Shown here: one piece after another, positions 2,378 to 32,716 of the stretch
Position numbering within the stretch: the stretch's first letter is position 1
Layout of the letters: each line of letters begins with the position of its first letter
Assembly: GCF_023051145.1 (NCBI RefSeq)
Contig: NZ_JALKFS010000005.1
Location: forward strand, 1,922,001-1,986,000
Origin: Williamsia sp. DF01-3
Lineage (GTDB): Bacteria > Actinomycetota > Actinomycetes > Mycobacteriales > Mycobacteriaceae
Reading direction: 5' to 3'
DNA length: 64,000 nucleotides
Program-made: the position numbers and the translations under genes
The notes under the pieces: model-generated
Database searches by the model: none
Told to the model about the DNA's origin: nothing
Seen by the model: the letters and a program-made list of their open reading frames with translations, nothing else

Positions 2378-2444
2378 ACACTGAACCCTGGGCTCAGCGG
2401 GTGATGCGCCTGAGTGCACACAAGTCGTGATCTGATGGCCGGAT

Positions 2445-17141: not shown

Positions 17142-17150
17142 CCGTTGATG

Positions 17151-17193
17151 TTAGCGCACATCTGCGCTAACCTTTAGCTCAACTTTGATCTAA
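17151..17193. promoter_or_regulatory. Tandem NrtR-box-like operators
   Basis: Two 20-bp palindromes lie in the nrtR/glycohydrolase gap. TTAGCGCACATCTGCGCTAA (17151-17170) is perfect apart from its 4-bp centre. TTAGCTCAACTTTGATCTAA (17174-17193) has one arm mismatch. They share the pattern TTAGCnCA...TG..CTAA and are 23 bp apart centre to centre, about two helical turns. The second overlaps the TAAGGAG ribosome site of the glycohydrolase. The palindromes are seen; NrtR binding is inferred from family and position. Confidence 0.8.
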
Positions 17194-17202
17194 GGAGAAG
17201 CG

Positions 17203-18171: not shown

Positions 18172-18677
18172 CCATCATCGACGTCGTCATCGGAGACATC
18201 ACCACCACGCGAGCCGATGTGATCGTCAACGCTGCGAACTCGTCGCTGTTGGGCGGTGGTGGTGTCGACGGCGCAATCCACCGCGTGGGCGGGCCCGAGA
18301 TACTCGATGAGTGCCGGCTCGTCCGTGCAACAACACTTCCCGACGGCCTCGGTGTGGGAGCCGCGGTGGCCACCACGGCGGGAAGGCTCCCGGCGAGGTG
18401 GGTGATTCACACGGTGGGGCCGCGCTACTCGGCGCGTCACGACCGGTCGGCTGACCTGCGGGCGTGTTACCAGCGCAGCCTGCTGCTGGCACGGTCACTG
18501 GGGGCGACTTCTGTCGCCTTTCCGTTGATCTCGGCCGGTGCGTACGGGTGGCCCGTCGCCGATGCGGTGTCCCGTCAGGTCTCCGCCATCAAGACCGCCG
18601 AAGTGAACCTGGACTTGGTGACTCTCGTGGCCTTCTCGCGCGCAATCGGCCAGTTGAGCAGGCAATATGTCGGCTGA
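18168..18677 (+). CDS. Macrodomain protein (O-acetyl-ADP-ribose deacetylase / mono-ADP-ribosylhydrolase type)
   Basis: A 169-residue stand-alone macrodomain of the MacroD/YmdB type. The ADP-ribose pocket signatures are VDVVIGDITTTRADVIVNAA, then NSSLLGGGGVDGAIHRVGG, then the loop with AAVATTAGRLPARWVIHTVG and PLISAGAYGWP. It starts four bases inside the glycohydrolase (ATGA), forming a two-gene ADP-ribose-removal operon. Its likely role is to de-ADP-ribosylate Asp/Glu or deacetylate O-acetyl-ADP-ribose in the cytoplasm. Confidence 0.93.
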   Translation: MTIIDVVIGDITTTRADVIVNAANSSLLGGGGVDGAIHRVGGPEILDECRLVRATTLPDGLGVGAAVATTAGRLPARWVIHTVGPRYSARHDRSADLRACYQRSLLLARSLGATSVAFPLISAGAYGWPVADAVSRQVSAIKTAEVNLDLVTLVAFSRAIGQLSRQYVG

Positions 18678-18754
18678 CCGGGTCGCCTGATGAACACTCG
18701 GTACCGGGGCTAAGCTGTCAGCAGGTCATAGTGACCGGCACCACAGGAGGCCCC

Positions 18755-19678
18755 ATGAATCGGTACGCAGTGCGCTCCAAGACCAGCCAGCTCGACCCCG
18801 AGAAGGACTTCGAGGAGATCAACCGGCTGCTCGCGACCATCGAGTTCCCCTGGGACATCAACCAGGCACTGAGTTTCGCGCTGTTCCGGACGTACGCGGT
18901 GCCGTCCGTGGGCCAACTGTTGTTCGACACCGGAGAGTTCACCGACAAAGTCCAGAAACGCTACGACGACACCACCCTGCTCCTCGACGGTGTGCTCGAA
19001 CACGGACTCGACAGCGAGACCGGGCGGACGAGCATCCGCCGCATCAATCAGATGCACGGTGCCTACGACATCTCGAACGACGACATGCTCTACGTACTCG
19101 CGACATTCGTGGTGACCCCGGTGCGCTGGATCGAGGACTACGGCTGGCGGCAGCTCAATCACAACGAGGTGGTGGCCGCCACCAACTACTATCGCCGTCT
19201 CGGAACCCTGATGGGGATCAAGCAGATTCCGGCCACCTACACCGAGTTCGAGCACTTCCTCGACGATTACGAGCAGAAGAACTTCGCCTACAACGACGGT
19301 GCGCGCAAGGTCGCCGATTCGACGCTGGCCTTGATGACCACGTTCCCGCCGAACGACAAGGCCCCGGCCTGGTTGATCAACATCTTTGCGCGCTCGTTGA
19401 TGGACGACGCCCTACTCGACGCATTCGGTTACCGGCATCCGCCACGGGCTGTCCGGGCCGTGTCGCGCGCAGCGCTCCGTGCGCGGGGCAGGCTGGTCCG
19501 CTGGTTCCCCGTCCGTAAGGCGCCGTTGCATGCCCGCGACCTCCCGAACATTCGTACCTACCCTGATGGCTACGACGTCACCGCGCTCGGCACATTCCCC
19601 CGTGGATGCCCTGTGGCGCACGGCGATTCGTCTCCGGTGGCTTCGGGGCAGGCAGCCGCGGACACCCTCGCCAAGTGA
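18755..19678 (+). CDS. Oxygenase MpaB family protein (DUF2236)
   Basis: A 307-residue DUF2236 protein, a heme-type oxygenase-like family common in mycolata and related to latex-clearing and MpaB proteins. Features include a mainly helical body, WDINQALSFALFRTYAVPSV near residue 30, MHGAYDISNDDMLYVLATFV near the centre (a His and hydrophobic pattern typical of the family), and NHNEVVAATNYYRRLGTLMG. The start ATG at 18755 follows ACAGGAGG. It stands alone between the macrodomain gene and a convergent MFS gene. The substrate is unknown. Confidence 0.85.
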   Translation: MNRYAVRSKTSQLDPEKDFEEINRLLATIEFPWDINQALSFALFRTYAVPSVGQLLFDTGEFTDKVQKRYDDTTLLLDGVLEHGLDSETGRTSIRRINQMHGAYDISNDDMLYVLATFVVTPVRWIEDYGWRQLNHNEVVAATNYYRRLGTLMGIKQIPATYTEFEHFLDDYEQKNFAYNDGARKVADSTLALMTTFPPNDKAPAWLINIFARSLMDDALLDAFGYRHPPRAVRAVSRAALRARGRLVRWFPVRKAPLHARDLPNIRTYPDGYDVTALGTFPRGCPVAHGDSSPVASGQAAADTLAK

Positions 19679-19687
19679 TCGGGCATG

Positions 19688-20917
19688 TCACGCGGGCATC
19701 TTGACGTCTTTTGCGGCGAGGAGAGCTGACAGCGCCTGAGGAATCAGAGCAAGACTCAGCACGCCCATGGCCAGCGGCCATGAACCGCTGATGTCATGCA
19801 AGGCGCCGATGGCCAAGGGGCCGGCCGCGGCGAGGCAGTAACCAACGGCCTGTGCCATTCCCGATATCTGCCCGGTCTGGGCAGGACTCGAGCTGCGCAA
19901 CACCATGAACAACAGCGCCAAACTGATCGATGCCCCCGGCCCGGCAGCCACACAGATCACCCAGAACGCTGTCCAGTGGTCGGTACCGATGAGTCCGGCG
20001 AATCCGACTGCACTCACCACGCACGCCAACAGGGTGATCACACGCTGGCCGCGGAAATGCCCGGCGATGATGGGAACCAGCAGCGACATGAGCAGCGCGA
20101 CGGTCTGGGCCAGCGCCAACAAACCGCCTGCTGCGGATTTGGCCATGCCCCCATCGATCAGGTACTCGGGAAGCCACGCGGTGAACGTGTAGAAGATCAG
20201 CGATTGCGCACCCATGTAGATGGTGATCGCCCAGGCGATCTTGTTGCGCCACAGCGAAGTAAGCGCGGGTCGGGCGCCCATCCGGTGCTTGCGTGAGAGC
20301 TGCGGAATCCACAGGACGAGCCCGATGACGGTCAGCAGCGACCACGATGCCAAGGCGATGCGCCACTGGTCATCGACGGCCGTATAGATGGGAACCGTCA
20401 GGCCCGCTGCCAGGGCCGCGCCTCCGGACAGCGTCATCGAGTAGAGACCGGTCATCAAACCTGATCGGTGCGCAAAATCCCGTTTGATCAATGCCGGCAG
20501 CACCACGTTGCAGATGCCGATCGCGACGCCGGCCACAGCGGATCCGGCAAACAGCGCCGGGACCGATGGAACGAGGCGGAGCAGTATTGCACTGAGCAAC
20601 AGGAGCATTGCGCCGAACACCGTGCGTTCGATACCGAACCGGCGGACGAGTCGCGGCGCGATCGGCGACACCAGTCCGAAGAACAACACCGGCAGGGTGG
20701 TCAGGAGCCCGGCGGTGGCGCTGCTGAAGCCCTCAGAAGCCTTGATGTCGTCGACCAGGGGAGCGACGGCCACCACGGCGGGCCGTAAGTTCGCTGCCAC
20801 CACCATGATCGCCAGGCCGGCAAAGATCGCCGCGGTGCGGCCGGGCCGTCGCGGGGACGTCGACGGCGGGCCCACCGCGACAGCGGTACTGCCCGGATTC
20901 GTGAGAGGGCCAGTCAT
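19688..20917 (-). CDS. MFS transporter, CynX/NimT type
   Basis: A 409-residue major facilitator with 12 predicted helices, of the group that includes cyanate and nitroimidazole transporters. ANLRPAVVAVAPLVDDIKAS near residue 42 and LLTTLPVLFFGLVSPIAPRL are characteristic. The ATG overlaps the stop of the upstream gntR by four bases (ATGA), so the two form an operon. Being next to the PucR and nucleobase genes, it may move a small nitrogenous compound such as a carbamoyl or cyanate-like product. The direction and substrate are not known. Confidence 0.87.
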   Translation of the reverse strand: MTGPLTNPGSTAVAVGPPSTSPRRPGRTAAIFAGLAIMVVAANLRPAVVAVAPLVDDIKASEGFSSATAGLLTTLPVLFFGLVSPIAPRLVRRFGIERTVFGAMLLLLSAILLRLVPSVPALFAGSAVAGVAIGICNVVLPALIKRDFAHRSGLMTGLYSMTLSGGAALAAGLTVPIYTAVDDQWRIALASWSLLTVIGLVLWIPQLSRKHRMGARPALTSLWRNKIAWAITIYMGAQSLIFYTFTAWLPEYLIDGGMAKSAAGGLLALAQTVALLMSLLVPIIAGHFRGQRVITLLACVVSAVGFAGLIGTDHWTAFWVICVAAGPGASISLALLFMVLRSSSPAQTGQISGMAQAVGYCLAAAGPLAIGALHDISGSWPLAMGVLSLALIPQALSALLAAKDVKMPA

Positions 20918-21621
20918 GAGAGGACCTCGATCGAGCGGTCGAGGTAGCAGGCGACAGCCGCCTCTGCCGCCACCGGGTCGCGATCCCGGATGGCTGCGAC
21001 CACTTCGGCATGTCCGGTCGGATGCGGGTGTGATTGGGCGTCGGCCGCGATGACGGTCGCGTGGGTGCGTGCCATCACCTCTGCGACTCCGGCATAGAGC
21101 TCACCGAGGAGCCCGTTGCCCGAGGCCGTGATGATGGCGGTGTGAAAAGCGATGTCCGCGTTGATGTATCGATCGAGGTCTTCGGCGCCGAATGCCTCGC
21201 GCATCTCGGTCAGAAGTCGGTCGAGTTCCCGTACGTCATCGTCGTTCCTGGTGGACGCTGCCGAGCGGGCGGCTTCGCGCTCGAGGGCGCGTCGCACCTG
21301 GAGCAGCTCCAGGATCTCGGAGTTCTCCACGCACCGACCGATGGCAGCGGCCATGAGATTGCGGCTGCGCACGTATGTACCATCGCCGCGCCGGGGCTCC
21401 AGGAAGCCTGAATGTTCCAACGCGCGAACGGCTTCCCGTACTGTGTTGCGCCCGACGCCGAGCTGGGCCACCAAGTCGGGCTCGGCCGGGATCCTCGCGC
21501 CGACGGCCCACTCACCCGACCGGATCAACTCCTGAATGCGCTCCACGACGAGTTCACTTGTACGTCTCGGCCGAGTGATGGACGCCGCCTCGGCTGGTAC
21601 CTGTGTCGTCTCCGTTCGCAT
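20914..21621 (-). CDS. GntR family regulator (FCD domain)
   Basis: A 235-residue regulator. The N-terminal winged helix has the sequence ELIRSGEWAVGARIPAEPDL, then VGRNTVREAVRALEHSGFLE. The FCD domain follows with metal- or ligand-type His/Asp residues in NADIAFHTAIITASGN and the later GHAEVVAAIRDRD. It is transcribed just ahead of the MFS gene with a four-base overlap. A short inverted repeat AACAT-CCC-ATGTT (21633-21645) sits 12 bp upstream of its start and could be an autoregulatory site. The effector is unknown. Confidence 0.9.
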   Translation of the reverse strand: MRTETTQVPAEAASITRPRRTSELVVERIQELIRSGEWAVGARIPAEPDLVAQLGVGRNTVREAVRALEHSGFLEPRRGDGTYVRSRNLMAAAIGRCVENSEILELLQVRRALEREAARSAASTRNDDDVRELDRLLTEMREAFGAEDLDRYINADIAFHTAIITASGNGLLGELYAGVAEVMARTHATVIAADAQSHPHPTGHAEVVAAIRDRDPVAAEAAVACYLDRSIEVLS

Positions 21622-21681: not shown

Positions 21682-23142
21682 CTATTCGCCTTCGACGTTG
21701 TTGTCCAGCGAGAACATCGACAACGCCGTGAAAATCGTCAGCCGCCGCTCCGGTTCATTCATGAACGGCCCGGTGATCTGCTCGATTCGGGCAATCCGGC
21801 TTCGGAGCGTGTTGGGGTGGATGTACAGCTCCCGTGCGGATTCGGTGATGTTGCAGTCGGTGGACCGCAGCACTCGCAGGATTCGCCGTTGATCGAGACC
21901 GTCCGGTGTCGGACCGGCAACCGAGCCCAGTGTCTCGGCGACAAAACTGCGGCGGGCGTGTTCGGGCAGTTGGTACAGCAGGCCGAGCACACCCAGGTCG
22001 CGGTATCTGGTCACCCGGTTGATCGCGCCGACGCGTCTGCCGACCGCCACGGCACGGCCGGCCTGCCGGAACGAACTCGGATAGCTGCGAGGATCGTCGA
22101 CCTCCTCGCTGGCGCCGACCGCCAGCGGAACCTGCACCGACCGGTACAGCGCACGGGCCAGGGCATCGAAATCGACTGTCGCACGGATCATCACGACCAC
22201 GGTGCCAGAGTTGACGATGGTGATCGAATCGGGATCGAATCGCAGGGCCACCGGGGTCATCGCGGTTCTGAGCTGCTGCAGCCCGTTCAAGTCCACCGAG
22301 ATGCCGAACGGTTCGATGCCCAGACAGACGACGCGATGGCGCCCGAACAGCGACAACCGCCGGCTCTTGCGCAAGCTCGTCTCGCGTTGCACAAGGTCGT
22401 CGCCCAGGATGTGTTTGAGATTGCGGGCGATTTCCGCGGCGGCTTCGTCGGTGGCTGTGTCGGCGAGCCTGGCGTGCAGGCGAAAGATGGGCGCGAGCGT
22501 CGTCAGGATCAGGAGTTCGTCTGGCGTGAGGGCCTTGTCGCGGCGGACTTCCAGTACGGGTCCGCCCACCGACGCAGCAGACAATCGCACCGAGGTGACG
22601 TCGGGATCGGTGGGGCCCGCGACGTCGGAGAGGTGTAGGCCGGCGCCGAGGAACCGGCCCAGACGGTCGAGCAGTTTGTCGAGGTCGTCGGCCGCGGCAA
22701 GGATGTCGTCGGGAACGGACGCCGCGCGGGGCCCGGTCTCGGAACGAACCTCGTCCGACTGCTGCAACTGTCTTTCGAACGACACGACGAGATCGGCATG
22801 TGGCACGAGTGCGCTGTTCCACAACAAGCACACCCCCGCCCGCTCGGCGCGAGCCACCAGCTGCCGGGGCGGATTGACCGGACGGATGGGGCTGACCAGT
22901 ACTGCCACAGGTTTCTTTGCCAGCACCGGATCCAGGATCGGCAACAGATCTGGAAGTGGGCCGCTGGGCCGGGTGGGCTTCCACTCCACCGTCACAACGG
23001 CCTCGTCGAGCGTGAGGTGGTCCCGTGCATGGGCCAGGTCGATCACCGACGTGATCGAGGTGTCGATTCCGGCGGGTGAGGTGGCCATCTGGACGCCGGA
23101 GACCCCGGCGAGCCCAGCCGGTGTGGCTCTCCCTTTCGGCAC
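21682..23142 (-). CDS. PucR family transcriptional regulator
   Basis: A 486-residue regulator of the PucR/CdaR type that typically activates purine, pyrimidine or hydantoin catabolism. The C-terminal helix-turn-helix (RILRVLRSTDCNITESAREL, then HPNTLRSRIARIEQITG) is clear and the middle part has the GGDEF-like regulatory fold. The start is taken at the GTG ending at 23142, which follows AGAGGAGG; the longer reading runs through the divergent oxygenase gene. It is divergent by 52 bp from the first 2OG oxygenase and is the obvious regulator of the plus-strand cluster to 32716. Confidence 0.9.
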   Translation of the reverse strand: MPKGRATPAGLAGVSGVQMATSPAGIDTSITSVIDLAHARDHLTLDEAVVTVEWKPTRPSGPLPDLLPILDPVLAKKPVAVLVSPIRPVNPPRQLVARAERAGVCLLWNSALVPHADLVVSFERQLQQSDEVRSETGPRAASVPDDILAAADDLDKLLDRLGRFLGAGLHLSDVAGPTDPDVTSVRLSAASVGGPVLEVRRDKALTPDELLILTTLAPIFRLHARLADTATDEAAAEIARNLKHILGDDLVQRETSLRKSRRLSLFGRHRVVCLGIEPFGISVDLNGLQQLRTAMTPVALRFDPDSITIVNSGTVVVMIRATVDFDALARALYRSVQVPLAVGASEEVDDPRSYPSSFRQAGRAVAVGRRVGAINRVTRYRDLGVLGLLYQLPEHARRSFVAETLGSVAGPTPDGLDQRRILRVLRSTDCNITESARELYIHPNTLRSRIARIEQITGPFMNEPERRLTIFTALSMFSLDNNVEGE

Positions 23143-23194: not shown

Positions 23195-24184
23195 GTGCTC
23201 GCCATCCCGCCGGTCGACCTGCTCGAAGCCTCCCGCGACCCCGAAACACGGGCGCGCCAGATCGAGCTGCTCGACACCGCCTGCTCCCGCACCGGCTACG
23301 CGTTGCTCACCGGTCACCGCATCCCGACCTCGTTGCTCACCGAGCTGTACAGCGTGAGCAGGCAGTTCTTCCTCTTGTCCGACACAGAGAAAGCAGCCGT
23401 GAGGCAGCCGGCGCCTGAGCAGGTCCGCGGCTGGACGGGACTCGGATCCGAGGGGATGGCTTACTCGCTCGACGAGGAATCGCACGGCGACCTCAAGGAG
23501 AAGATGGACATCGGCCCGGTGTCGGGCCCGACGGTGGGGCAGCCCGGCGCCGGCCCGATGGCCTATCCGAATCTGTGGCCGCGATTTCCCGAGCGGTTCC
23601 GAGCGGTGTGGGAGGACTACTACCGCCACATGCAGCGGGTCGGCGCCGAACTGCTGTCGCTGGCGGCAGAGGGGTTCGGTCTGCCGTCGGATCATTTTGC
23701 GCCGATGTTCGACACCGAGATGAGCATGCTTCGCGGACTGTACTTTCCGCCTCAACCCGAGCCGCCCCTGGCACATCAGGCGCGCGCCGGCATTCACACG
23801 GACTACGGCGCGTTCACCGTGGTCTCCGCGGAGTCGTCGCCGGGAGGCCTTCAGGTACTCGACCCCGACGGCGAATGGCTGGAGGTCACCACCACCCCGG
23901 CCACGTTGGTGGTGCTCACCGGTGACCTGCTCGCGGAATGGACCGGTGATCATTGGCCGGCCACCTTGCACCGCACGGCCAATCCGCCGCGATCGGTGGC
24001 CTTCGACAGCTCGCGCCTGAGTTTCGCCTTCTACCAACACCCCAATTTTGATGTGTCGGTTGCGGCCCTACCGCCCTTTGCGGCGTCGGATCCGACGGCC
24101 GTACCCGACCCACTGCGTGCCGGCGACCACCTTGCCGAGAAGTACGTACGGCAGACCACCTTCGGCCGGCGCACCGCCGATTGA
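23195..24184 (+). CDS. 2-oxoglutarate/Fe(II)-dependent oxygenase (isopenicillin N synthase-like), first of two
   Basis: A 329-residue non-heme iron oxygenase of the DIOX_N/2OG-FeII_Oxy family. The iron facial triad is visible as HTDYGAF (His-x-Asp) and the later WPATLHRT (His). SSRLSF gives the Arg-x-Ser that binds 2-oxoglutarate. The start is a GTG at 23195, 52 bp from the divergent PucR start. It is the first gene of the nucleobase cluster. Thymine 7-hydroxylases belong to the same broad fold, so oxidation of a methylated pyrimidine or purine is plausible but unproven. Confidence 0.88.
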   Translation: MLAIPPVDLLEASRDPETRARQIELLDTACSRTGYALLTGHRIPTSLLTELYSVSRQFFLLSDTEKAAVRQPAPEQVRGWTGLGSEGMAYSLDEESHGDLKEKMDIGPVSGPTVGQPGAGPMAYPNLWPRFPERFRAVWEDYYRHMQRVGAELLSLAAEGFGLPSDHFAPMFDTEMSMLRGLYFPPQPEPPLAHQARAGIHTDYGAFTVVSAESSPGGLQVLDPDGEWLEVTTTPATLVVLTGDLLAEWTGDHWPATLHRTANPPRSVAFDSSRLSFAFYQHPNFDVSVAALPPFAASDPTAVPDPLRAGDHLAEKYVRQTTFGRRTAD

Positions 24185-24195
24185 CACCGATCGCG

Positions 24196-24247
24196 GTGTT
24201 ACGTATCGAGTGCGGCAGGAAACGTCCACGTAATCCACTGTTACGCA
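24196..24247. promoter_or_regulatory. Possible regulator site upstream of the second oxygenase
   Basis: The 181-bp gap between the two oxygenase genes holds three TTACG/CGTAA half-sites: TTACG at 24199-24203 and the inverted pair CGTAA (24229-24233) / TTACG (24241-24245), with a 7-bp spacer. Position suggests binding by the PucR or GntR regulator of this region. The half-sites are seen; the function is a guess. No clear -10/-35 pair was found. Confidence 0.3.
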
Positions 24248-24365
24248 TGTGTTTCCGATGTGGTGATGTGACAGGTGGCGGCGCGAACTATCGGTGATCG
24301 GTGCTCTTGTTGGTTGCTTGCATCGCAAACAGACTCGATGCAGACGACAAGTGAGGAGCCTGCAG

Positions 24366-25361
24366 ATGTCTGTAGTACCGGTGATCGACATTTCCGCACT
24401 GCACGGAGACGACGACAACGCCAAGGCCGCGGTGGCGGCCGAACTCGACCATGCATGCCGCGAGATCGGGTTCTTCCAAATCACCAATCATGGAATCGAC
24501 GCTCAGGTGATCGCCGACATGTACCGCACATCCGACGAGTTCTTTTCGCTCCCCGAAGCCGAGAAGCGGCACGTCGCTCAGCCGAGCCCGGACACCGTGC
24601 GCGGTTACTCGTCCATCGGGGAGCAGGCGTTCTCCTACAGCGAGGATGTCCACCAGCCGCGTGACCTGCACGAGAAGTTCGACGTGGGCCCGGTCGACTT
24701 CGATCGCGACGACCCATACTTCTCGGTGGAGAACGCAGGTCCGCACTTCCTGCCCAACCAGTGGCCGCAGCGTCCGGCGGAGATGGAACAAGCCTGGAGC
24801 ACGTACTTCCGCGCGATGAACGGCCTCTCCCGCAACCTGATGAGTGCCTTCGCCCGCGGACTCGGACTCGATCCCGACTACTTCGTCGACACCATCGACA
24901 AGGACATCAGCATGCTCCGGGCCATCAACTACCCGCACATGACCACACCGCCCCAGCCGGGTCAGATGCGCGCGGGCGCCCACACCGACTACGGCAGTCT
25001 GACCATCGTCCGGCAGGAAGAGGCGCCCGGTGGACTCGAGGTGTTCACCATGGACGGGGACTGGATCCCGGTGCCGGTTGTCCCGGGTGCACTGGTGGTC
25101 AACATCGGAGACCTGATGGCGCAGTGGACCAACGACCAGTGGACGTCCACCCGGCACCGTGTGCGTACGCCACGGCCCGACGCGACCGGCGACACCCGGC
25201 GGATGTCCCTGGTGTTCTTCCACCAACCGAACTACGACGCGATGATCGAATGCCTGCCCACCTGCCTGGCGCCAGGGGAAGAGCCGAAGTACCGGCCGAT
25301 CAGTTCGGGTGACCACCTCACCGAAAAGTTTGCCAAGACGATCGCCCTCACGCCTCGCTGA
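24366..25361 (+). CDS. 2-oxoglutarate/Fe(II)-dependent oxygenase (isopenicillin N synthase-like), second of two
   Basis: A 331-residue paralogue of the oxygenase at 23195. It has REIGFFQITNHGID in the N-terminal DIOX_N domain, the iron ligands HTDYGSLT and TRHR, and the 2-oxoglutarate-binding RRMSL. The start ATG at 24366 follows GAGGAG. Its stop shares a base with the ATG of the ferredoxin gene (TGATG), so the two are translationally coupled. This is unusual because enzymes of this class take electrons from 2-oxoglutarate and need no ferredoxin. Confidence 0.9.
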   Translation: MSVVPVIDISALHGDDDNAKAAVAAELDHACREIGFFQITNHGIDAQVIADMYRTSDEFFSLPEAEKRHVAQPSPDTVRGYSSIGEQAFSYSEDVHQPRDLHEKFDVGPVDFDRDDPYFSVENAGPHFLPNQWPQRPAEMEQAWSTYFRAMNGLSRNLMSAFARGLGLDPDYFVDTIDKDISMLRAINYPHMTTPPQPGQMRAGAHTDYGSLTIVRQEEAPGGLEVFTMDGDWIPVPVVPGALVVNIGDLMAQWTNDQWTSTRHRVRTPRPDATGDTRRMSLVFFHQPNYDAMIECLPTCLAPGEEPKYRPISSGDHLTEKFAKTIALTPR

Positions 25362-25636
25362 TGTCGGGCTCGAGCTTCGAGATCGAGCTGCGGCGCACCG
25401 GACGGGTGGTGACGGTACCGGCCGACCGGACCGCGTTGGCCGTGGTCCGCGATGTGGTGCCCACCGCCGAGTTCAACTGTCTCCAAGGCGAGTGCGGCGC
25501 ATGCGTGGCCACAGTGCTCGAAGGCACCCCTGACCACCGCGACACCGTTCTGTCCGACCGGGCAAGAGCCGCAGGCAAGCGAATCATCCTCTGTGTCAGC
25601 CGATCCCTCTCGGATCGACTGGTGATCGACCTCTGA
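25361..25636 (+). CDS. Stand-alone 2Fe-2S ferredoxin domain of phthalate dioxygenase reductase type
   Basis: A 91-residue protein with the plant-type 2Fe-2S ligands in FNCLQGECGACVATVLEG and a fourth Cys in IILCVSRS. TPDHRDTVLSDRARAAGK and SDRLVIDL match the C-terminal ferredoxin domain of VanB/phthalate dioxygenase reductases. The FMN and NAD domains of those reductases are absent and no stretch is left for them. It is coupled to the second 2OG oxygenase by a TGATG overlap. Its reductase and electron acceptor are not encoded in this window as far as I can tell. Confidence 0.9.
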   Translation: MSGSSFEIELRRTGRVVTVPADRTALAVVRDVVPTAEFNCLQGECGACVATVLEGTPDHRDTVLSDRARAAGKRIILCVSRSLSDRLVIDL

Positions 25637-25652
25637 TCGAAAGGCCCCGACA

Positions 25653-26063
25653 ATGACGACAACCAGCCTGTCGTTTGCCAGCGTGTTCAGCGCGGACATC
25701 GAGAAGCTCAGCACCTTCTACCGCGAGCTGCTCGGACTCGACGAGGTACTCGAGCTGCGCTCGGAGCACTTTCGGGGACTTCGTATCGGCGGCACCATCC
25801 TGGGTTTCAGTGCCCCGACTGCCTATTCGATGCTCAATCTCGCTGCCCCGCACCATGAGCAGGACGGGGTGAGCAGCTTCCTGACGTTCGAACTGCCCAC
25901 CGATGCCGACGTCGACACCGTCACCGCGGCCGCAACGGCGGCCGGGGCAACCTGCGTAAAAGAACCCGGTCGGACGTACTACGGGGCGTGGCAGTCGGTG
26001 CTGCTCGACCCCGACGGCAACGCCTTTCGGCTCAACCACCTGACGCTCGAACAGCCTTCCTGA
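25653..26063 (+). CDS. VOC family (glyoxalase/dioxygenase-like) protein
   Basis: A 136-residue vicinal-oxygen-chelate fold protein. The repeated beta-alpha-beta-beta-beta pattern is recognisable from FASVFSADIEKLSTFYRELL at the start to the closing LLDPDGNAFRLNHL. Candidate metal residues are not complete enough to name a reaction. The ATG at 25653 follows AAAGG, 16 bp after the ferredoxin. In this operon it could open or isomerise an oxidised ring product, but this is speculative. Confidence 0.85.
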   Translation: MTTTSLSFASVFSADIEKLSTFYRELLGLDEVLELRSEHFRGLRIGGTILGFSAPTAYSMLNLAAPHHEQDGVSSFLTFELPTDADVDTVTAAATAAGATCVKEPGRTYYGAWQSVLLDPDGNAFRLNHLTLEQPS

Positions 26064-26119
26064 CGTTTCCTCCATCCCGCCCCACCTCGACAGTGCCGTC
26101 GAATCATCAGATCCGCACG

Positions 26120-26140
26120 GGCGCAGGTCTTCTCTGCGCC
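26120..26140 (+). promoter_or_regulatory. Leader hairpin before the NCS2 permease
   Basis: GGCGCAG (26120-26126) and CTGCGCC (26134-26140) form a perfect 7-bp stem with a 7-nt loop, ending just before the GAAAGGAAG ribosome site of the permease. It could protect or attenuate the message at this internal boundary of the operon. There is no T-run, so it is not a classical terminator, and it does not look like a known riboswitch. Confidence 0.4.
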
Positions 26141-26154
26141 GAAAGGAAGCCCGC

Positions 26155-27474
26155 ATGTCCATATTCGACTGGCAACTCAAAACCGGTGACGCCGTCGTGG
26201 CGCCCCACGAACGCCTCAGCTGGCCGCGCACCGTCGGCATCGGGCTACAGCACGTGGTCGCGATGTTCGGCGCGACATTCCTCGTCCCGGTCCTCACCGG
26301 TTTCCCTCCGGCCACCACGCTGCTGTTCTCCGGTATCGGGACCATCCTCTTCCTCATCATCACGCGTAACCGGCTACCCAGCTACCTGGGCTCGAGTTTC
26401 GCGATCATCGCCCCCACGATCGCGGCGGGCGCCTCACACGGCCCGTCCGGCGCACTCGGGGGAATCGTTGTGGTCGGCGCCTTGCTGATGATCATCGGTG
26501 TGGTGGTCCACTTCGTCGGCATCGGCTGGATCGAAGCGTTGATGCCCCCGGTGGTGACCGGCGCCATCGTGGCTCTGGTCGGGTTCAACCTCGCGCCCAC
26601 GGCCAAGACCAACTTCGAAGAAGACGCCATCACCGCCTTCATCGTGCTTGTGCTGCTGCTGTTGTCGTTGGTGCTGTTCCGCGGCTTGCTCGGTCGACTC
26701 GCCATCTTCACCAGCGTGGTGATCGGCTACTTCATCGCCCTGGCCCGCGACAAGGTCGACACCGATCCCATCGGACAGGCCGACTGGTTCGGTCTGCCCG
26801 ACTTCACCGCACCCACCTTCCACCTCTCGGTACTGCCCATGTTCATCCCGGTGGTGCTCGTGCTGGTCGTCGAGAACATCGGGCACGTCAAATCCATCAA
26901 CACCATGACCGGCATCAACAACGACCACCGGATCGGGCGGGCACTGGCGGCCGATGGCCTCGCAACCGTGCTGGCCGGTAGCGGCGGCGGTTCTGCCACC
27001 ACCACATACGCCGAGAACATCGGCGTCATGGCCGCCACCAAGGTGTATTCCACCGCCGCCTACTGGGTGGCAGGAGGCGCCGCGATCCTGCTCGGCCTAT
27101 CGCCAAAGGTGGGTGCGGTCATCGCGTCCATCCCGCCGGGTGTTCTCGGCGGCGTGACCACCGCGCTGTACGGCCTCGTCGGTATCCTCGGCGTCCACAT
27201 CTGGGTCACCAACAAGGTGGACTTCTCCAAGCCCATCAACCAGTTCACCGCGGCGATAGCTCTTGTCATCGGCATCGCCGACTTCTCGTGGAAGATCGGC
27301 GATCTGAGTTTCGGTGGTATTGCTTTGGGCGCCATTTCCGCGGTGGTGATCTACCACGTGATGCGTCTGATCGGACAGTGGCGCGGCACCGTGGTGGTGG
27401 ACGAACGAGTGCCTGCCACAACCGGGCCGACCGACCCCGAACGTCCGCACAGCGCGGAGAAGCAGGAGATCTGA
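26155..27474 (+). CDS. NCS2 family nucleobase permease (uracil/xanthine type)
   Basis: A 439-residue permease with about 14 hydrophobic segments that would import a purine or pyrimidine base with protons. Motifs include the N-terminal LQHVVAMFGATFLVPVLTG, SSFAIIAPTIAAG, VVENIGHVKSINTMTG (the region with the conserved substrate-binding Glu) and SATTTYAENIGVMAATKVYS. The wording is closer to UraA/RutG than to xanthine permeases. Its last codon overlaps the dihydropyrimidinase start (TGATG). This is the strongest clue that the cluster handles a pyrimidine-like base. Confidence 0.92.
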   Translation: MSIFDWQLKTGDAVVAPHERLSWPRTVGIGLQHVVAMFGATFLVPVLTGFPPATTLLFSGIGTILFLIITRNRLPSYLGSSFAIIAPTIAAGASHGPSGALGGIVVVGALLMIIGVVVHFVGIGWIEALMPPVVTGAIVALVGFNLAPTAKTNFEEDAITAFIVLVLLLLSLVLFRGLLGRLAIFTSVVIGYFIALARDKVDTDPIGQADWFGLPDFTAPTFHLSVLPMFIPVVLVLVVENIGHVKSINTMTGINNDHRIGRALAADGLATVLAGSGGGSATTTYAENIGVMAATKVYSTAAYWVAGGAAILLGLSPKVGAVIASIPPGVLGGVTTALYGLVGILGVHIWVTNKVDFSKPINQFTAAIALVIGIADFSWKIGDLSFGGIALGAISAVVIYHVMRLIGQWRGTVVVDERVPATTGPTDPERPHSAEKQEI

Positions 27475-28895
27475 TGTCGATCACACTCATCCGCGGCGGC
27501 ACGGTGGTGTCCTCGACCGGCAGACAACTCATCGACGTGTTGATCGACGGCGAGACGATCGTCGCGCTCGTCGAACCGGGCGCCACTGCGCTCGGCGCCG
27601 ATCTCTCCGCCACCGCCGACACCGTCATCGACGCCACCGGCAAGTACGTCATCCCCGGCGGTGTGGACGCGCACACCCATATGCAGATGCCATTCGGTGG
27701 CACCACCGCGTCGGACACCTTCGAAACAGGTACCCGTGCAGCGGCTTTCGGCGGCACCACCACCATCGTCGACTTCGCCATCCAGACACCCGGGGAGCGA
27801 TTGCAGGACACCCTCGGCGCGTGGCATGACAAAGCGGCGGGCAACTGCGCGATCGACTACGGGTTCCATCAGATCATCGGCGATGTCAACGACGAATCCC
27901 TCTCGGCCATGAGCGAACTGGTGGCCGAAGGGGTCACCAGCTTCAAGTTGTTCATGGCGTACCCGGGCGTCTACTACTCCGATGACGGCCAGATCTTGCG
28001 GGCGATGCAGAAGTCCGCCGACACCGGCGCATTGATGATGATGCACGCCGAGAACGGCATCGCCATTGACGAATTGGTGGCCCAGCACCTCAAGCGTGGA
28101 GAGACCTCCCCGTACTTCCACGGTGTCTCACGCCCGTGGCAGCTCGAGGAAGAGGCCACGCACCGGGCCATCATGCTCGCCGATGTCACCGGAGCGCCGC
28201 TCTACGTGGTGCACGTGTCCGCCCGGCAGGCCCTCGAGCAGATCGCGACCGCACGTGGCAAGGGCGCCAACGTGTTCGCCGAGACATGCCCGCAATACCT
28301 GTACCTCTCGCTGGAGGAACAACTCGGCGCCGCGGGCTTCGAGGGTGCGAAGTGGGTGTGTTCGACCCCGCTGCGCTCACGTGCCGAGGGTCATCAGGAC
28401 GAGCTGTGGAAGTTCATCCGAACCGGCGATGTGTCCGGTGTCGCCACCGACCACTGCCCGTTCTGCATGGTGGACCAGAAGGAACTCGGAATCTCCGACT
28501 TCTCCAAGATCCCCAACGGAATCGGCGGTGTCGAACACCGGCTCGACCTCATGTACCAGGGCGTGGTCGACGGACGCATCAGCCTGGAGCGGTGGGTGGA
28601 GGTGTGTGCCACCACGCCGGCCCGCATGTTCGGGATGTACCCCCGCAAGGGAGTGATCTCCCCGGGCGCCGACGCGGACGTGGTGATCTACGACCCGGCA
28701 GGTCACACGAGCATCGGTCTGGGCAAAACGCACCACATGAACATGGACTACTCGGCCTGGGAGGGTTTCGAGATCGACGGCGCCGTGCAGACGGTGCTCT
28801 CCCGGGGCAAGGTCATCGTCGATGGTGGCAGTTACCTCGGAGCCAGCTCAGACGGGCGGTTCGTGCGCCGCGAGCTGTCACAGAACCTGCTCTGA
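27474..28895 (+). CDS. Dihydropyrimidinase / hydantoinase
   Basis: A 473-residue cyclic amidohydrolase opening dihydrouracil-, dihydrothymine- or hydantoin-type rings. Metal ligands appear in GGVDAHTHMQMPFGG (HxH) and the carboxylated Lys in FKLFMAYPG. Further His residues are in MMHAENG and YVVHVSA, and the catalytic Asp is in ATDHCPFC. The start ATG at 27474 overlaps the permease stop, and the longer reading lies inside the permease. It is the second step of reductive pyrimidine breakdown, with the amidohydrolase at 30021 and the aminotransferase at 31331 as the expected later steps. Confidence 0.94.
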   Translation: MSITLIRGGTVVSSTGRQLIDVLIDGETIVALVEPGATALGADLSATADTVIDATGKYVIPGGVDAHTHMQMPFGGTTASDTFETGTRAAAFGGTTTIVDFAIQTPGERLQDTLGAWHDKAAGNCAIDYGFHQIIGDVNDESLSAMSELVAEGVTSFKLFMAYPGVYYSDDGQILRAMQKSADTGALMMMHAENGIAIDELVAQHLKRGETSPYFHGVSRPWQLEEEATHRAIMLADVTGAPLYVVHVSARQALEQIATARGKGANVFAETCPQYLYLSLEEQLGAAGFEGAKWVCSTPLRSRAEGHQDELWKFIRTGDVSGVATDHCPFCMVDQKELGISDFSKIPNGIGGVEHRLDLMYQGVVDGRISLERWVEVCATTPARMFGMYPRKGVISPGADADVVIYDPAGHTSIGLGKTHHMNMDYSAWEGFEIDGAVQTVLSRGKVIVDGGSYLGASSDGRFVRRELSQNLL

Positions 28896-28975
28896 GAAGG
28901 CGGCTCGCCGGCAATTTTTTCCGACAGCGGTCCCGGTAACGGTCAACCACCGCACTCAACGATTGGAGACACCGC

Positions 28976-29995
28976 ATGGACTTCGGTGTTGTCATGCAAT
29001 GCAATCCGCCGGCATCGCGGGTGGTCGAACTGGCCGTCTCGGCCGAGAACCGTGGCTTCAGCCACGTGTGGACCTTCGACTCCCACGTGTTGTGGCAGGA
29101 GCCGAACGTGATCTACAGCCAGATCCTCGCGGCCACCCGCAATGTGACCGTCGGTCCGATGGTCACCAATCCGCTCACGCGTGACGCAACGGTGACCGCC
29201 TCGACGTTCGCCACGCTCAACTCGATGTTCGGAAATCGCACGGTGTGCGGTATCGGCCGGGGCGACTCGGCCGTGCGTGTGCTGTCGGGCAAGCCATCCA
29301 CACTGGCGACATTGCGCGAAAGCATCGATGTCATCAAGGAACTCGGCAACGGGCGTAGTGCCACGATCAACGGCACGACCGTGCGCTTCCCCTGGGCGGG
29401 CAAGTCGCGTCTCGACGTCTACGGCGCCGGGTACGGACCGAAGGCCCTAGAGATGATCGGTCAGGTCGCCGACGGGTTCATCCTGCAACTCGCCGATCCC
29501 GCCATCGTCCGATGGACGGTGGAACGCGTGAAGCAGGCAGCCGAGGCGGCGGGGCGTGATCCCGCGGCGGTATCGATCGTGGTCGCCGCCCCGGCCTACG
29601 TCGGAGACGATCTGGACCACCAACGCGATCAATGCCGCTGGTTCGGCGGAATGGTGGGCAACCACGTCGCCGACCTCGTCGACAAATACGGCGGTGACGG
29701 CGCGCAGGTACCTTCGGCCCTCACCGACTACATCAAGAACCGGCAGGGTTACGACTACAACGAGCACGGCCGAGTGGGCAACAGCCACACAGCATTTGTG
29801 CCCGACGAGATCATCGATCGGTTCTGCATCCTCGGCCCACCGGAGCGTCACGTCGAGCGACTGGAGGAACTGCACGCCCTCGGTGTCGACCAGTTCGCCG
29901 TCTACCTTCAGCACGACGGTAAGGACACCACACTCGACGCGTACGGCGAGACGATCATTCCCGCCCTCGCGCCCACAGTCGCTGCGCGATCATGA
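28976..29995 (+). CDS. LLM class F420-dependent oxidoreductase (TIGR03842 type)
   Basis: A 339-residue luciferase-like TIM-barrel oxidoreductase, expected to use F420 (or FMN). It opens MDFGVVMQCNPPASRVVELA and contains HVWTFDSHVLWQEPNVI and CGIGRGDSAVR, the wording of the TIGR03842 subfamily. It lies 80 bp downstream of the dihydropyrimidinase on the same strand. No classical dihydropyrimidine dehydrogenase is present, so this enzyme is a candidate for the ring reduction or oxidation step. That role is my inference. A GGCG/CGCC stem followed by six T (28900-28921) lies in the gap. Confidence 0.9.
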   Translation: MDFGVVMQCNPPASRVVELAVSAENRGFSHVWTFDSHVLWQEPNVIYSQILAATRNVTVGPMVTNPLTRDATVTASTFATLNSMFGNRTVCGIGRGDSAVRVLSGKPSTLATLRESIDVIKELGNGRSATINGTTVRFPWAGKSRLDVYGAGYGPKALEMIGQVADGFILQLADPAIVRWTVERVKQAAEAAGRDPAAVSIVVAAPAYVGDDLDHQRDQCRWFGGMVGNHVADLVDKYGGDGAQVPSALTDYIKNRQGYDYNEHGRVGNSHTAFVPDEIIDRFCILGPPERHVERLEELHALGVDQFAVYLQHDGKDTTLDAYGETIIPALAPTVAARS

Positions 29996-30020
29996 CCGGC
30001 GCGGAACAGAAAGGACCGTC

Positions 30021-31334
30021 ATGACCTCTTCCGGATCGCACGCCTCCGGGTCCGTTCGTGTCGAATCGACGTCGGCGTCCGACACCGCGTTCCTCGATGA
30101 CTTCGCCACCATGTCGACCTTCGGTGCCACCACGGCGGGCGGTGTCGAACGACAGGCCGCGACAGCCGCCGATGCCGACAACCGGCGCTGGCTGGGCCGG
30201 TGGCTCACCGATCGCGGGTTCACCGTTCTCTACGACCGCGTCGGCAACATGTTCGGCCTCTACGAACTCGTGCCGGGTGCGCCCTATGTGCTGGCGGGTT
30301 CGCATCTGGACAGTCAGCCACGCGGCGGACGCTTCGACGGCGCGTACGGTGTGCTGGCCGCCGCCCACGCGATGGACAGGCTGCGCCGTCACTACACCGA
30401 CCATCCGGAGCATGCCAGGCACAACCTGGCAGTGATCAACTGGTTCAACGAGGAGGGCTCCCGTTTCAAGCCGTCGATGCAGGGCAGTGGCGTCTTCACC
30501 GGGAAGATCGCCCTGCAGGCCGCCCTCGACACCACCGACGCCGACGGGACCACCGTGGCGCAGGCGTTGGGCTCGTGGGACATGCTCGGCGACAGCGACG
30601 TCTTCACCGTCGGTGACCACCACACCGCCGGCGGCCGCGCTGTCGCGTCGTACGCCGAGATCCACATCGAGCAGGGCCGCGAGCTGGACAAGGCCGGTGT
30701 GCTGATGGGTGTGGTGCCCTCCACCTGGGGAGCCAACAAATACGAGATCTCGGTGCTGGGCGCTCAATCCCATACCGGCGCCACCGCCATCGCCGACCGT
30801 CAGGATGCCCTGTACGGAGCAGCGAAAGTTGTTGTGGCACTGCGCGAACTCGCTGATGAGTACGGTGATGACCTGCACACGTCCTGTGGTCAGCTGACCG
30901 TGTACCCCAACTCGCCGGTGGTGGTCGCCCGCGAGGTGGACATGCATCTCGACCTGCGTTCGCCGTCCGATGAGCTGCTCGAGGAGGCCGACGCCAAGTT
31001 GATCCGGGCGTTCGCCGAGATCGAGGTGGCCGCCGACGTCAAGATCGAGCGACGTTTCGCACACACCTGGAAAGGCCATACCTATCAGCCCGAAGGCGTG
31101 GCTTTGGCCGAAGAGGTGATCGATGCCCTCGGGCACAGCCACATGCAGGTGCGTACCCGTGCAGGCCACGACTCGACCAACATGAAGGACGTGGTTCCCA
31201 CCGTGATGTTGTTCATCCCGAGCGTCGACGGGGTATCCCACGCCGAGAACGAATACACGCACGACGGCGATCTCACCGCGGGGGTCGACGTGCTGACCGA
31301 GACCGTGGCGCGGATGGTGGAAGGCAAACTGTGA
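30021..31334 (+). CDS. M20 family N-carbamoyl amidohydrolase (beta-ureidopropionase / N-carbamoyl-L-amino acid hydrolase type)
   Basis: A 437-residue zinc-dependent amidohydrolase that removes the carbamoyl group from the ring-opened product, releasing CO2, ammonia and a beta- or alpha-amino acid. Metal-site motifs of the family are GSHLDSQPRGGRFDGAYGVL (His, Asp), INWFNEEGSRF (Glu), YAEIHIEQG (His) and VSHAENEYT (His). The ATG at 30021 follows AGAAAGGA; the longer reading overlaps the LLM gene. Its stop overlaps the aminotransferase start by four bases (GTGA). Confidence 0.9.
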   Translation: MTSSGSHASGSVRVESTSASDTAFLDDFATMSTFGATTAGGVERQAATAADADNRRWLGRWLTDRGFTVLYDRVGNMFGLYELVPGAPYVLAGSHLDSQPRGGRFDGAYGVLAAAHAMDRLRRHYTDHPEHARHNLAVINWFNEEGSRFKPSMQGSGVFTGKIALQAALDTTDADGTTVAQALGSWDMLGDSDVFTVGDHHTAGGRAVASYAEIHIEQGRELDKAGVLMGVVPSTWGANKYEISVLGAQSHTGATAIADRQDALYGAAKVVVALRELADEYGDDLHTSCGQLTVYPNSPVVVAREVDMHLDLRSPSDELLEEADAKLIRAFAEIEVAADVKIERRFAHTWKGHTYQPEGVALAEEVIDALGHSHMQVRTRAGHDSTNMKDVVPTVMLFIPSVDGVSHAENEYTHDGDLTAGVDVLTETVARMVEGKL

Positions 31335-32716
31335 CCAATACGTTCGACAACACACCGTTCGGGGGCCAAGACGCATTCGACGACGCACGCGAGGCCGGCC
31401 GCCGTGCCCACGAACTCGACCGCGCACACGTCTTCCACTCGTGGTCGGCGCAGGCTCAGATCTCACCGATGACGATCCTCGCGGCGTCCGGTTCACACAT
31501 CTGGGACGGCGACGGCAACCGGCTGTTGGACTTCTCCTCGCAGATGGTGAACACCAATGTGGGACACCAACATCCGAGAGTGGTCGACGCCATCGCCGAG
31601 CAGGCACGAACGCTCTGCACCATCGCACCCCAGCACGTCAACGTGGCACGGTCCGAGGCTGCACGCCTGATCGCCGAACGCACCCCCGGTGACCTCGACC
31701 GCATCTTCTTCACCAACGGCGGCGCGGATGCCGTCGAACATGCGGTGCGGATGGCGCGCCTGCACACCGGACGGCGCAAGGTGCTGACCCGCTTCCGGTC
31801 CTATCACGGCGGCACCGACACAGCGATCAACATGACCGGCGACCCGCGGCGCTGGCCGAACGACTACGGCGCCGCGGGGGTGGTCCACTTCTTCGGCCCG
31901 TTCTTGTACCGCACGCAATTCCACTCGGTCGACGAGCAGCAGGAGTGTGAGCGCGCACTCGAGCACCTCGAGGCCGTCATCTCCATGGAGGGTCCTGCGA
32001 CCATCGCCGCGATCGTCCTCGAACCGGTGCCCGGAACCGCGGGGATCATGGTCCCACCGCCGGGGTACCTGGCCGGTGTGCGTGAACTCTGCGACCGGTT
32101 CGGCATCGTCATGATCGCGGACGAGGTGATGGCGGGGTTCGGCCGGACGGGGGAGTGGTTCTCCATCAACCACTCCGGAGTGGTGCCCGACCTCATCACT
32201 TTCGCCAAAGGAGTGAACTCGGGATACGTGCCGCTCGGCGGTGTCGCGATCAGCGGTGCGATCGCCGAGACGTTCGCCGACCGGGTGTACCCGGGCGGGT
32301 TGACCTACTCCGGCCATCCGTTGGCGACAGCCGCAGCCGTCGCGACCATCAACGCGATGACCGAAGAAGGCATCGTCGAGAATGCAGCGGCCATCGGACG
32401 CGACGTCCTCGGGCCCGGGCTCGCCGAGCTGGCGGCACGACATCGCAGCGTCGGCGAGGTGCGTGGGATCGGTGTCTTCTGGGCGGTGGAGCTGGTCAAG
32501 GACCAGGGCACCCGAGAACCGTTGGCGCCGTACGGTTCCACCAGCGCGGCCATGAACGACGTCATAGGCGCGTGCAAAAAGGGTGGACTGTTGCCGTTTG
32601 CCAACTTCAACCGCCTGCACATGGTTCCCCCGTGCACGGTGAGCCCGACCGAGGTCGCCGAAGGCCTGGAGATCCTCGACGCCGCGCTCACCGTCGCCGA
32701 CGCGTTGGTCGGCTGA
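31331..32716 (+). CDS. Class III aminotransferase (beta-alanine:pyruvate / omega-amino acid type)
   Basis: A 461-residue PLP enzyme. The Lys that holds PLP is in LITFAKGVNSGYVPLGG, the preceding Asp in MIADEVMAGFGRTGEW, and the phosphate-binding region is FFTNGGADAVEHAVRMAR. Coupled to the N-carbamoyl amidohydrolase by a GTGA overlap, it would take beta-alanine or beta-aminoisobutyrate to a semialdehyde, completing pyrimidine-type catabolism. The substrate is inferred from context. Its 3' end overlaps the convergent aldo/keto reductase by 29 bp. Confidence 0.92.
   Translation: MTNTFDNTPFGGQDAFDDAREAGRRAHELDRAHVFHSWSAQAQISPMTILAASGSHIWDGDGNRLLDFSSQMVNTNVGHQHPRVVDAIAEQARTLCTIAPQHVNVARSEAARLIAERTPGDLDRIFFTNGGADAVEHAVRMARLHTGRRKVLTRFRSYHGGTDTAINMTGDPRRWPNDYGAAGVVHFFGPFLYRTQFHSVDEQQECERALEHLEAVISMEGPATIAAIVLEPVPGTAGIMVPPPGYLAGVRELCDRFGIVMIADEVMAGFGRTGEWFSINHSGVVPDLITFAKGVNSGYVPLGGVAISGAIAETFADRVYPGGLTYSGHPLATAAAVATINAMTEEGIVENAAAIGRDVLGPGLAELAARHRSVGEVRGIGVFWAVELVKDQGTREPLAPYGSTSAAMNDVIGACKKGGLLPFANFNRLHMVPPCTVSPTEVAEGLEILDAALTVADALVG

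Follow-up and report, generated by a model that had tools for sequence, protein, structure and literature searches.

How does a gene cluster that encodes the later enzymes of reductive pyrimidine breakdown carry out the first step of that route, and what do two 2-oxoglutarate (2OG) oxygenases do at its head? These questions are raised by a locus of the soil bacterium Williamsia sp. DF01-3, found in a stretch of 64,000 nucleotides (contig NZ_JALKFS010000005.1, positions 1,922,001 to 1,986,000; hereafter the window) from a 5.59-Mb genome that is 98.9% complete. A first reading made from the sequence alone (the sequence-only reading) had listed a PucR regulator, two oxygenases, a ferredoxin, a VOC protein, an NCS2 permease, a dihydropyrimidinase (DHPase), an N-carbamoyl hydrolase and an aminotransferase. 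Gene calls and Pfam and NCBIfam scans of the window proteins, which underlie all gene assignments here, confirm every one of these in place. The reading overlooked a gene for a luciferase-like, F420-type oxidoreductase (LLM; 28976 to 29995 of the window, on the forward strand like all genes below unless stated), which lies between the DHPase and amidase genes. The presence of this gene inside the operon changes the meaning of the "missing" dehydrogenase step. The LLM protein belongs to NCBI family TIGR03842 (587 bits, cut-off 295), and we consider it likely that this family is a pyrimidine reductase, an analogue of dihydropyrimidine dehydrogenase (DPD).

The first step and the core of the proposed pathway

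A nucleobase pathway without DPD, as the sequence-only reading had supposed, is supported for pyrimidines. No canonical DPD was found in the window's own genome, in which the sole match to the DHO_dh domain is a 369-amino-acid quinone-dependent PyrD (593.6 bits, cut-off 433). PreA (NF006183) is absent at E ≤ 1e-60 from all 246 genomes sampled from the class Actinomycetes, the window's own included, while the Escherichia coli and Deinobacterium controls are positive. A search for a second DPD through the Fer4_21 family gave weak matches only, with two parts of one frame, together with neighbors, above the cut-off.

TIGR03842 is a family of the kind "hypoth_equivalog," whose name carries no function. 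Among the 246 genomes it occurs in 64 (E ≤ 1e-80), DHPase in 69 (E ≤ 1e-100; 66 above cut-off) and RutA in 4 (3 above cut-off); by genus, TIGR03842 is found in 24 of 104 and DHPase in 27 of 104. Both are present in 61 genomes, only TIGR03842 in 3, only DHPase in 8, and neither in 174 (Fisher p of 7.5e-45, treating related genomes as independent; tables compared by eye). There are 63 TIGR03842 loci outside the window's genome, of which 60 were fetched after three near contig ends (G060, G074, and G238) were dropped. The flanks are mostly ~6.5 kb per side and shorter where a contig ends, and all neighbor counts refer to these 60. DHPase is found near TIGR03842 in 58 loci and a nitrilase-type carbamoyl amidase in 56; in 55, amidase, DHPase, and LLM lie on one strand within 7 kb. 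Two amidase copies that were scanned resemble N-carbamoylputrescine amidase, below the cut-off of that model. Aminotransferase matches occur in 39 loci (18 at 58 to 74% identity and 21 at 30 to 34%), aldehyde dehydrogenase matches in 23 (22 of them at 60 to 74% identity), and NCS1 permease matches in 19; the one aldehyde dehydrogenase copy scanned is a CoA-acylating methylmalonate-semialdehyde dehydrogenase (MMSDH). Neither oxygenase, nor the VOC protein, ferredoxin, M20 amidase, or NCS2 permease, has a match within the fetched flanks of any of the 60 loci. Because DHPase is at 58 of these loci and the oxygenase genes are at none, we place the F420-type gene in a pyrimidine operon of the reductive type that is independent of the oxygenases.

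This bears on the earlier suggestion that the oxygenases take the place of the dehydrogenase, oxidation alone making the base ready for DHPase. The lack of a canonical DPD and the position of the oxygenases upstream in the cluster speak for it. However, DHPase needs a ring that is saturated at the 5,6 position, and hydroxylation of a methyl group does not yield one. The operon also has its own reductase-type gene, which fits the role better, the oxygenases are missing from all 60 fetched TIGR03842 loci, and at 10 Ox2 loci the neighbors are rut genes. We regard a substitution of this kind as very improbable.

The LLM protein matches the profile and, as a structural model, the fold of the F420-dependent luciferase-like hydride transferases, scoring 35.7 against methylene-tetrahydromethanopterin reductase (Mer), 32.1 against Adf, and 28 to 30 against FGD types. 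Cys284, Asn229, His230, and Tyr259-Asp260-Tyr261 are invariant in the 6 LLM sequences aligned. Were it instead an FMN-dependent, RutA-like oxygenase, the ring would be opened oxidatively. We rejected this identity because RutA does not rank in the top 25 of 27 NCBIfam models for the protein, the genome of the window yields no RutA match at E ≤ 1e-100, and the F420 enzymes score higher. A RutB-type match is near LLM in 0 of the 60 loci, compared with 58 for DHPase, and in the Alphaproteobacteria Leisingera and Paracoccus (loci L175, NZ_CP081067.1, 144000 to 170000, and L154, NZ_CP067126.1) TIGR03842 is the last gene of an F420-synthesis operon. Taken together, these results leave a RutA-like function improbable. 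The window's genome encodes CofD (G000:C5:3969380-3970351; E of 5.2e-120), the single F420-synthesis step searched. In Leisingera the F420 operon with TIGR03842 adjoins a transhydrogenase and the rest of a pyrimidine pathway; pyrimidine catabolism is a possible reason for F420 in these Alphaproteobacteria.

Several observations speak against the proposed F420 core. Identity to Mer is only 27%, and we infer the use of F420 rather than FMN. None of the 19 further genomes sampled from the family to which the window belongs yielded TIGR03842, and two of these have DHPase. Finally, the 8 genomes with DHPase alone (three of them below its cut-off) have neither PreA nor TIGR03842.

The remaining core proteins were assigned from profile and structure matches. 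The NCS2 permease (26155 to 27474) is in the uracil-permease branch: it matches uracil permease 8omz (3.4e-76, versus 4.8e-12 for a uric acid-xanthine permease), and it reaches 369 bits with the RutG model, below the cut-off of 759. DHPase (PydB/HydA; 27474 to 28895) scores 556.7 bits with TIGR02033 (cut-off 393) and matches solved D-hydantoinases (3e-138) and dihydropyrimidinase 3sfw (1.1e-137). The M20 hydantoinase/carbamoylase-family amidase (30021 to 31334; TIGR01879, 281 bits, cut-off 204) has as its first substrate-named chain the N-carbamoyl-β-alanine amidohydrolase 8c46 (5e-59), the higher hits having general names; we propose, from these matches, that it acts on N-carbamoyl-β-alanine or a 2-substituted form of it. 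For the class III aminotransferase (31331 to 32716; PF00202), whose nearest solved structure is taurine:2-oxoglutarate aminotransferase 6jix (1.7e-106), we propose the role of a β-alanine/β-amino acid transaminase.

Breakdown of allantoin or hydantoin, on the purine side, was considered as well. The M20 protein is above the cut-off of a model named allantoate amidohydrolase (436.8, cut-off 424), and PucR regulators are known from purine catabolism. Among solved chains, however, the same protein is nearer to N-carbamoyl-β-alanine amidohydrolase than to allantoate amidohydrolase (1e-37), and the permease belongs to the uracil branch. The allantoinase model gives 270.4 bits for the window's DHPase and 243.2 for the only other match in the genome, both below the cut-off of 357.85, and on that result the allantoin pathway was rejected. 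The MMSDH-type gene at 22 of the 60 LLM loci and the Rut association of Ox2 (see below) also argue against a purine substrate, to which we give little credence.

The oxygenases as a proposed front end

Ox1 (23195 to 24184; PF14226 and PF03171) and Ox2 (24366 to 25361) are both 2OG/Fe(II) oxygenases of the DIOX_N/2OG-FeII_Oxy type. Ox1 is like isopenicillin N synthase (IPNS) and thymine-7-hydroxylase (T7H), with PDB matches to the ethylene-forming-type enzyme 9ovh (2.8e-32) and the thymine dioxygenase 5c3p (1.1e-30). Fungal T7H is the top sequence match, the top fold match (from structural models), and the closest solved structure of Ox2, which agrees with it in fold and in its Fe(II)/2OG residues. 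The base-stacking T7H residues F292 and Y217, together with R190, correspond to F285, Y209, and R185 in 24 of 24 Ox2 proteins (residue counts exclude L039, with matches in two pieces, and L040, a partial match).

When a single genome of each species was scanned, 35 Ox2 loci were obtained. Ten of them (Marinobacter, Hylemonella, and Hydrogenophaga) have Ox2 and VOC followed by a BMP-type ABC importer. All 10 carry RutR and RutB, and 8 carry RutA; in the other two, the stretch starts just before RutB. RutA and RutB (L020) and RutD, RutE, and RutF (L026) are above their cut-offs, and RutR (L020) is above the cut-off of one of its two models. TIGR03842 is found in 0 of 9 rut-type Ox2 genomes searched and in 6 of 7 actinobacterial ones, Modestobacter being the exception (L025 was not among the genomes searched). 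An actinobacterial metagenome-assembled genome (L019) has the order DHPase, MMSDH, LLM, ABC importer, Ox2, VOC. Eleven further Ox2 loci (L029 to L038 and L040) are more distant and not clearly linked to pyrimidines; 4 of them include VOC (L031, L032, L034, and L036, in the last on the other strand). The occurrence of TIGR03842 loci without oxygenase genes, and of Ox2 beside rut genes without TIGR03842, indicates two separate modules. That Ox2-VOC is attached to two ring-opening routes is what would be expected of a step that acts on the base beforehand. Together with the likeness to T7H, it supports, as a model, the earlier idea that the oxygenases first oxidize a modified base.

Thymine or a close C5 analogue has, in our judgment, an even chance of being the substrate of the oxygenases. 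The stacking residues cannot serve as proof of it since they are kept in distant relatives too. Several results oppose thymine or the two-module scheme as a whole. In distant relatives with no shown pyrimidine link, the Phe is present in 10 of 10, the Tyr in 7 of 10, and the Arg in 4 of 10. T7H N87, which hydrogen-bonds O2 of the base in the Neurospora crassa enzyme (PDB 5C3P-S), is V78 and N294 is Q287 in 24 of 24 Ox2 proteins, and E122 did not align with Ox2; with N87 and N294 not kept, we class Ox2 as T7H-like rather than as T7H. No isoorotate decarboxylase candidate was recognized in the cluster, the genome not having been searched for one. Modestobacter has Ox1, Ox2, ferredoxin, VOC, and PucR without TIGR03842, and only dihydropyrimidinase-like proteins of 31 to 33% identity, and two Blastococcus loci show neither TIGR03842 nor DHPase within the stretch covered.

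The oxygenases might instead N-demethylate an N-methylated pyrimidine (1- or 3-methyluracil or methylcytosine) or oxidize some other modified base. N-demethylation is common among 2OG oxygenases, N87 of T7H is not kept in Ox2, and Marinobacter relatives of Ox2 beside an 8-oxoguanine deaminase and an amidohydrolase suggest that the family may serve several modified nucleobases. Against this, T7H is the best match of Ox2 both in sequence and in fold, and we judge the alternative rather unlikely. It shares the F420 core with our preferred explanation; the two are not exclusive, and their probabilities overlap and do not sum to one. In the Marinobacter locus (L026), two more Ox2-like oxygenases flank the rut genes and Ox2 and adjoin the 8-oxoguanine deaminase (663 bits, cut-off 532) and the other amidohydrolase (regions 1892 to 4467 and 16898 to 19348), so that there is perhaps a wider family of nucleobase oxygenases around Ox2. 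In Neorhizobium (L156, 7950 to 8924), an Ox2-like oxygenase (38%) lies beside a pseudouridine-5'-phosphate glycosidase, a kinase, and an ABC importer, which is another nucleoside link of this family. A search of plasmid DNA with Ox1-Ox2 gave partial, distant matches only.

The ferredoxin-like protein (25361 to 25636; Fer2, 2Fe-2S) has matches in loci L006 to L016, and the VOC-fold protein (25653 to 26063; Pfam assignment) is the partner of Ox2. Metal-dependent VOC enzymes carry a Glu ligand at their C-terminal ligand position. At this position, the VOC protein has Arg in 28 of 28 sequences, followed by an invariant Asn128, and the idea of a metal-dependent 5-carboxyuracil decarboxylase was rejected for this reason; the protein may be a binding partner. 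The ferredoxin as a partner of a Rieske enzyme was likewise dismissed, as there is no Rieske enzyme among the Pfam hits of the cluster.

The preferred explanation, then, is that a front-end module feeds a reductive core. The UraA-branch NCS2 permease would import the base, and Ox1 and Ox2, controlled by PucR and acting together with VOC and ferredoxin, would oxidize a C5-substituted pyrimidine before ring attack, most probably thymine by way of 5-hydroxymethyl- and 5-formyl- to 5-carboxyuracil. The luciferase-fold TIGR03842 enzyme would then reduce C5=C6, with F420H2 as the predicted reductant in vivo, doing the work of DPD with an enzyme of another family. On chemical reasoning, loss of CO2 from a 5-carboxy-dihydropyrimidine might need no enzyme of its own, and such a spontaneous loss would explain why no recognized isoorotate decarboxylase is in the cluster. 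DHPase would open the ring, the M20 amidase would remove the carbamate, and the aminotransferase would convert the β-amino acid to the semialdehyde. With the substrate taken loosely, we lean slightly toward regarding the cluster as a complete two-module pathway of this kind for a pyrimidine base. Evenly balanced, in our estimate, is the broader proposition that many Actinomycetes have a reductive pyrimidine pathway dependent on F420, that this pathway moved to marine Alphaproteobacteria with an F420 operon, and that a mobile Ox2-VOC front end (with Ox1 and ferredoxin in Actinomycetes) opens thymine or other C5-modified pyrimidines to it or to Rut.

Gene order, regulation, and a separate copy

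Ox2, ferredoxin, VOC, NCS2, DHPase, LLM, M20 amidase, and aminotransferase genes overlap or are separated by gaps of ≤91 bp, and 181 bp lie between the end of Ox1 and the start of Ox2. Ox1 is divergent from the PucR-type regulator (21682 to 23142, reverse strand; HTH_30 and GGDEF_2-like; start assigned to the GTG after AGGAGG), which is kept in L006 to L012. In these 7 other loci, the order Ox1-Ox2-Fdx-VOC-NCS2-DHPase-LLM-M20 beside the divergent PucR is retained (Fdx, ferredoxin), which is not chance, with 3 of the 7 near-identical to the window. The aminotransferase is found in 5, has a 35% match in a sixth, and was not found in the seventh. By record title, the loci come from Williamsia (four), Rhodococcus, Gordonia, and Kitasatospora (one each). 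Williamsia muralis BULT 1.1 (L006) is 95 to 100% identical to the cluster and its neighbors, protein by protein. Each gene of the locus titled Kitasatospora arboriphila (L007, NZ_JNYV01000003.1) is 92 to 100% identical to its counterpart in the Williamsia-type locus of the window, and the assembly is probably mislabeled or contaminated.

LLM proteins of the window and L006 to L012 form one clade (FastTree support of 1.0; 76 sequences), as do the DHPase proteins (0.993; 71 sequences). The sister group consists of standard Williamsia and Rhodococcus copies (node support of 0.98 for DHPase and 0.74 for LLM), joined for LLM by a Quadrisphaera copy. Williamsia limnetica, Williamsia soli, and Rhodococcus KRD162 have, besides an Ox cluster, a standard amidase-DHPase-LLM operon; in the window's genome, TIGR03842 is above cut-off only as the Ox-cluster copy. 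The M20 carbamoylase is present in L006 to L012, and no nitrilase-type amidase was found in L174, the one Ox cluster tested for it. In Quadrisphaera (L173/L013), a standard operon is accompanied by another LLM that lies with an Ox module, followed by urease gamma/beta and alpha genes. This second LLM runs counter to the pattern: the tree joins it (0.983) to a standard copy from a different genome and not to the Ox clade. Quadrisphaera excepted, a specialized copy of this kind would suit a different, modified substrate.

A GAAAC-N6-GTAAC box (24240 to 24255, reverse strand), GlnR-like by what we take to be the consensus, lies 126 to 130 bp upstream of Ox2. It is matched exactly in the window and in L006 to L011 and is absent in L012 to L016. 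Since GlnR-like boxes in the window are not above chance (3 with ≤1 mismatch versus 1.2 expected), the case for the box rests on its conservation. A three-block GlnR pattern gave 0 matches. The putative box suggests nitrogen control. An MFS transporter and an FCD-GntR regulator adjoin PucR (19688 to 21621, reverse strand) and are kept there in the Williamsia-type loci L006 to L010, so that they may be part of an extended locus. Farther out are an ADP-ribosylglycohydrolase (PF03747) followed directly by a macro-domain protein (PF01661; both within 17203 to 18677) and an MPAB/Lcp-type oxygenase (18740 to 19678).

Precedents and known systems

A putative F420/FMN oxidoreductase was reported to be responsible in vivo for C5-C6 reduction of the uracil moiety of mureidomycin, although enzyme assays failed (PMC10714638), and a putative F420 luciferase-family reductase replaces a PydA-like enzyme in Chloroflexota uric acid clusters (PMC12507026). 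With these chemical precedents, our proposal is a pathway variant, not a new kind of chemistry. PydA variants differ by reductant (NADP, NAD, or ferredoxin), and the survey describing them required a DHO_dh domain, to which TIGR03842 would have been invisible (PMC7332683). A 2021 review lists the reason for F420 in Proteobacteria as unanswered and, in the available part, has no pyrimidine reductase among the F420 enzymes described (PMC8498797). A 2015 study of Mycobacterium smegmatis states that some genes of the reductive pyrimidine pathway had yet to be identified there (PMC4617892); it is doubtful that TIGR03842 fills this gap because 19 of 19 other sampled genomes of the family lack it. 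In the open-licence literature, which excludes subscription papers and preprints, we found no description of an F420-type DPD analogue or of a bacterial thymine-dioxygenase module.

With TIGR03842, a candidate can be named for the first step that reductive pyrimidine catabolism lacks in a class with PreA in none of the sampled genomes, and for some Proteobacteria it offers a physiological role of F420 that can be tested; if the proposal is true, pyrimidine catabolism is at least one reason for F420 there. Bacterial relatives of fungal T7H would be a shared front end of two ring-opening routes, and a pathway-specific F420 enzyme acting on pyrimidines would be useful in biocatalysis.

With the reductive Pyd pathway (PydA/PreTA, PydB, PydC, and β-alanine aminotransferase), the cluster shares DHPase, the carbamoyl-β-amino acid hydrolase family, the aminotransferase class, and a nucleobase permease. 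It differs in that PydA/PreA was not found, the operon contains the TIGR03842 F420-type enzyme, and Ox1 and Ox2 are added along with VOC and ferredoxin. Clostridium chromiireducens offers another case in which the first step draws on a reductant other than NAD(P)H, here through the ferredoxin-dependent PydAc (PMC7332683). PydAc is a PydA homologue, whereas TIGR03842 belongs to the luciferase-like superfamily; both types of enzyme are TIM barrels. Unlike Mer and other luciferase-like hydride transferases, TIGR03842 is a family of its own that is tied to DHPase operons. Fungal T7H (N. crassa) differs from Ox2, which is bacterial, has Val for N87 and Gln for N294, and belongs to catabolic clusters that also encode VOC and a regulator, either PucR or RutR. 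The Rut pathway (RutABCDEFGR) shares the Ox2-VOC front end in the 10 proteobacterial loci, and RutA is in the same luciferase-like superfamily as the window's LLM; in the window's genome, which has no RutA match, ring opening goes with DHPase.

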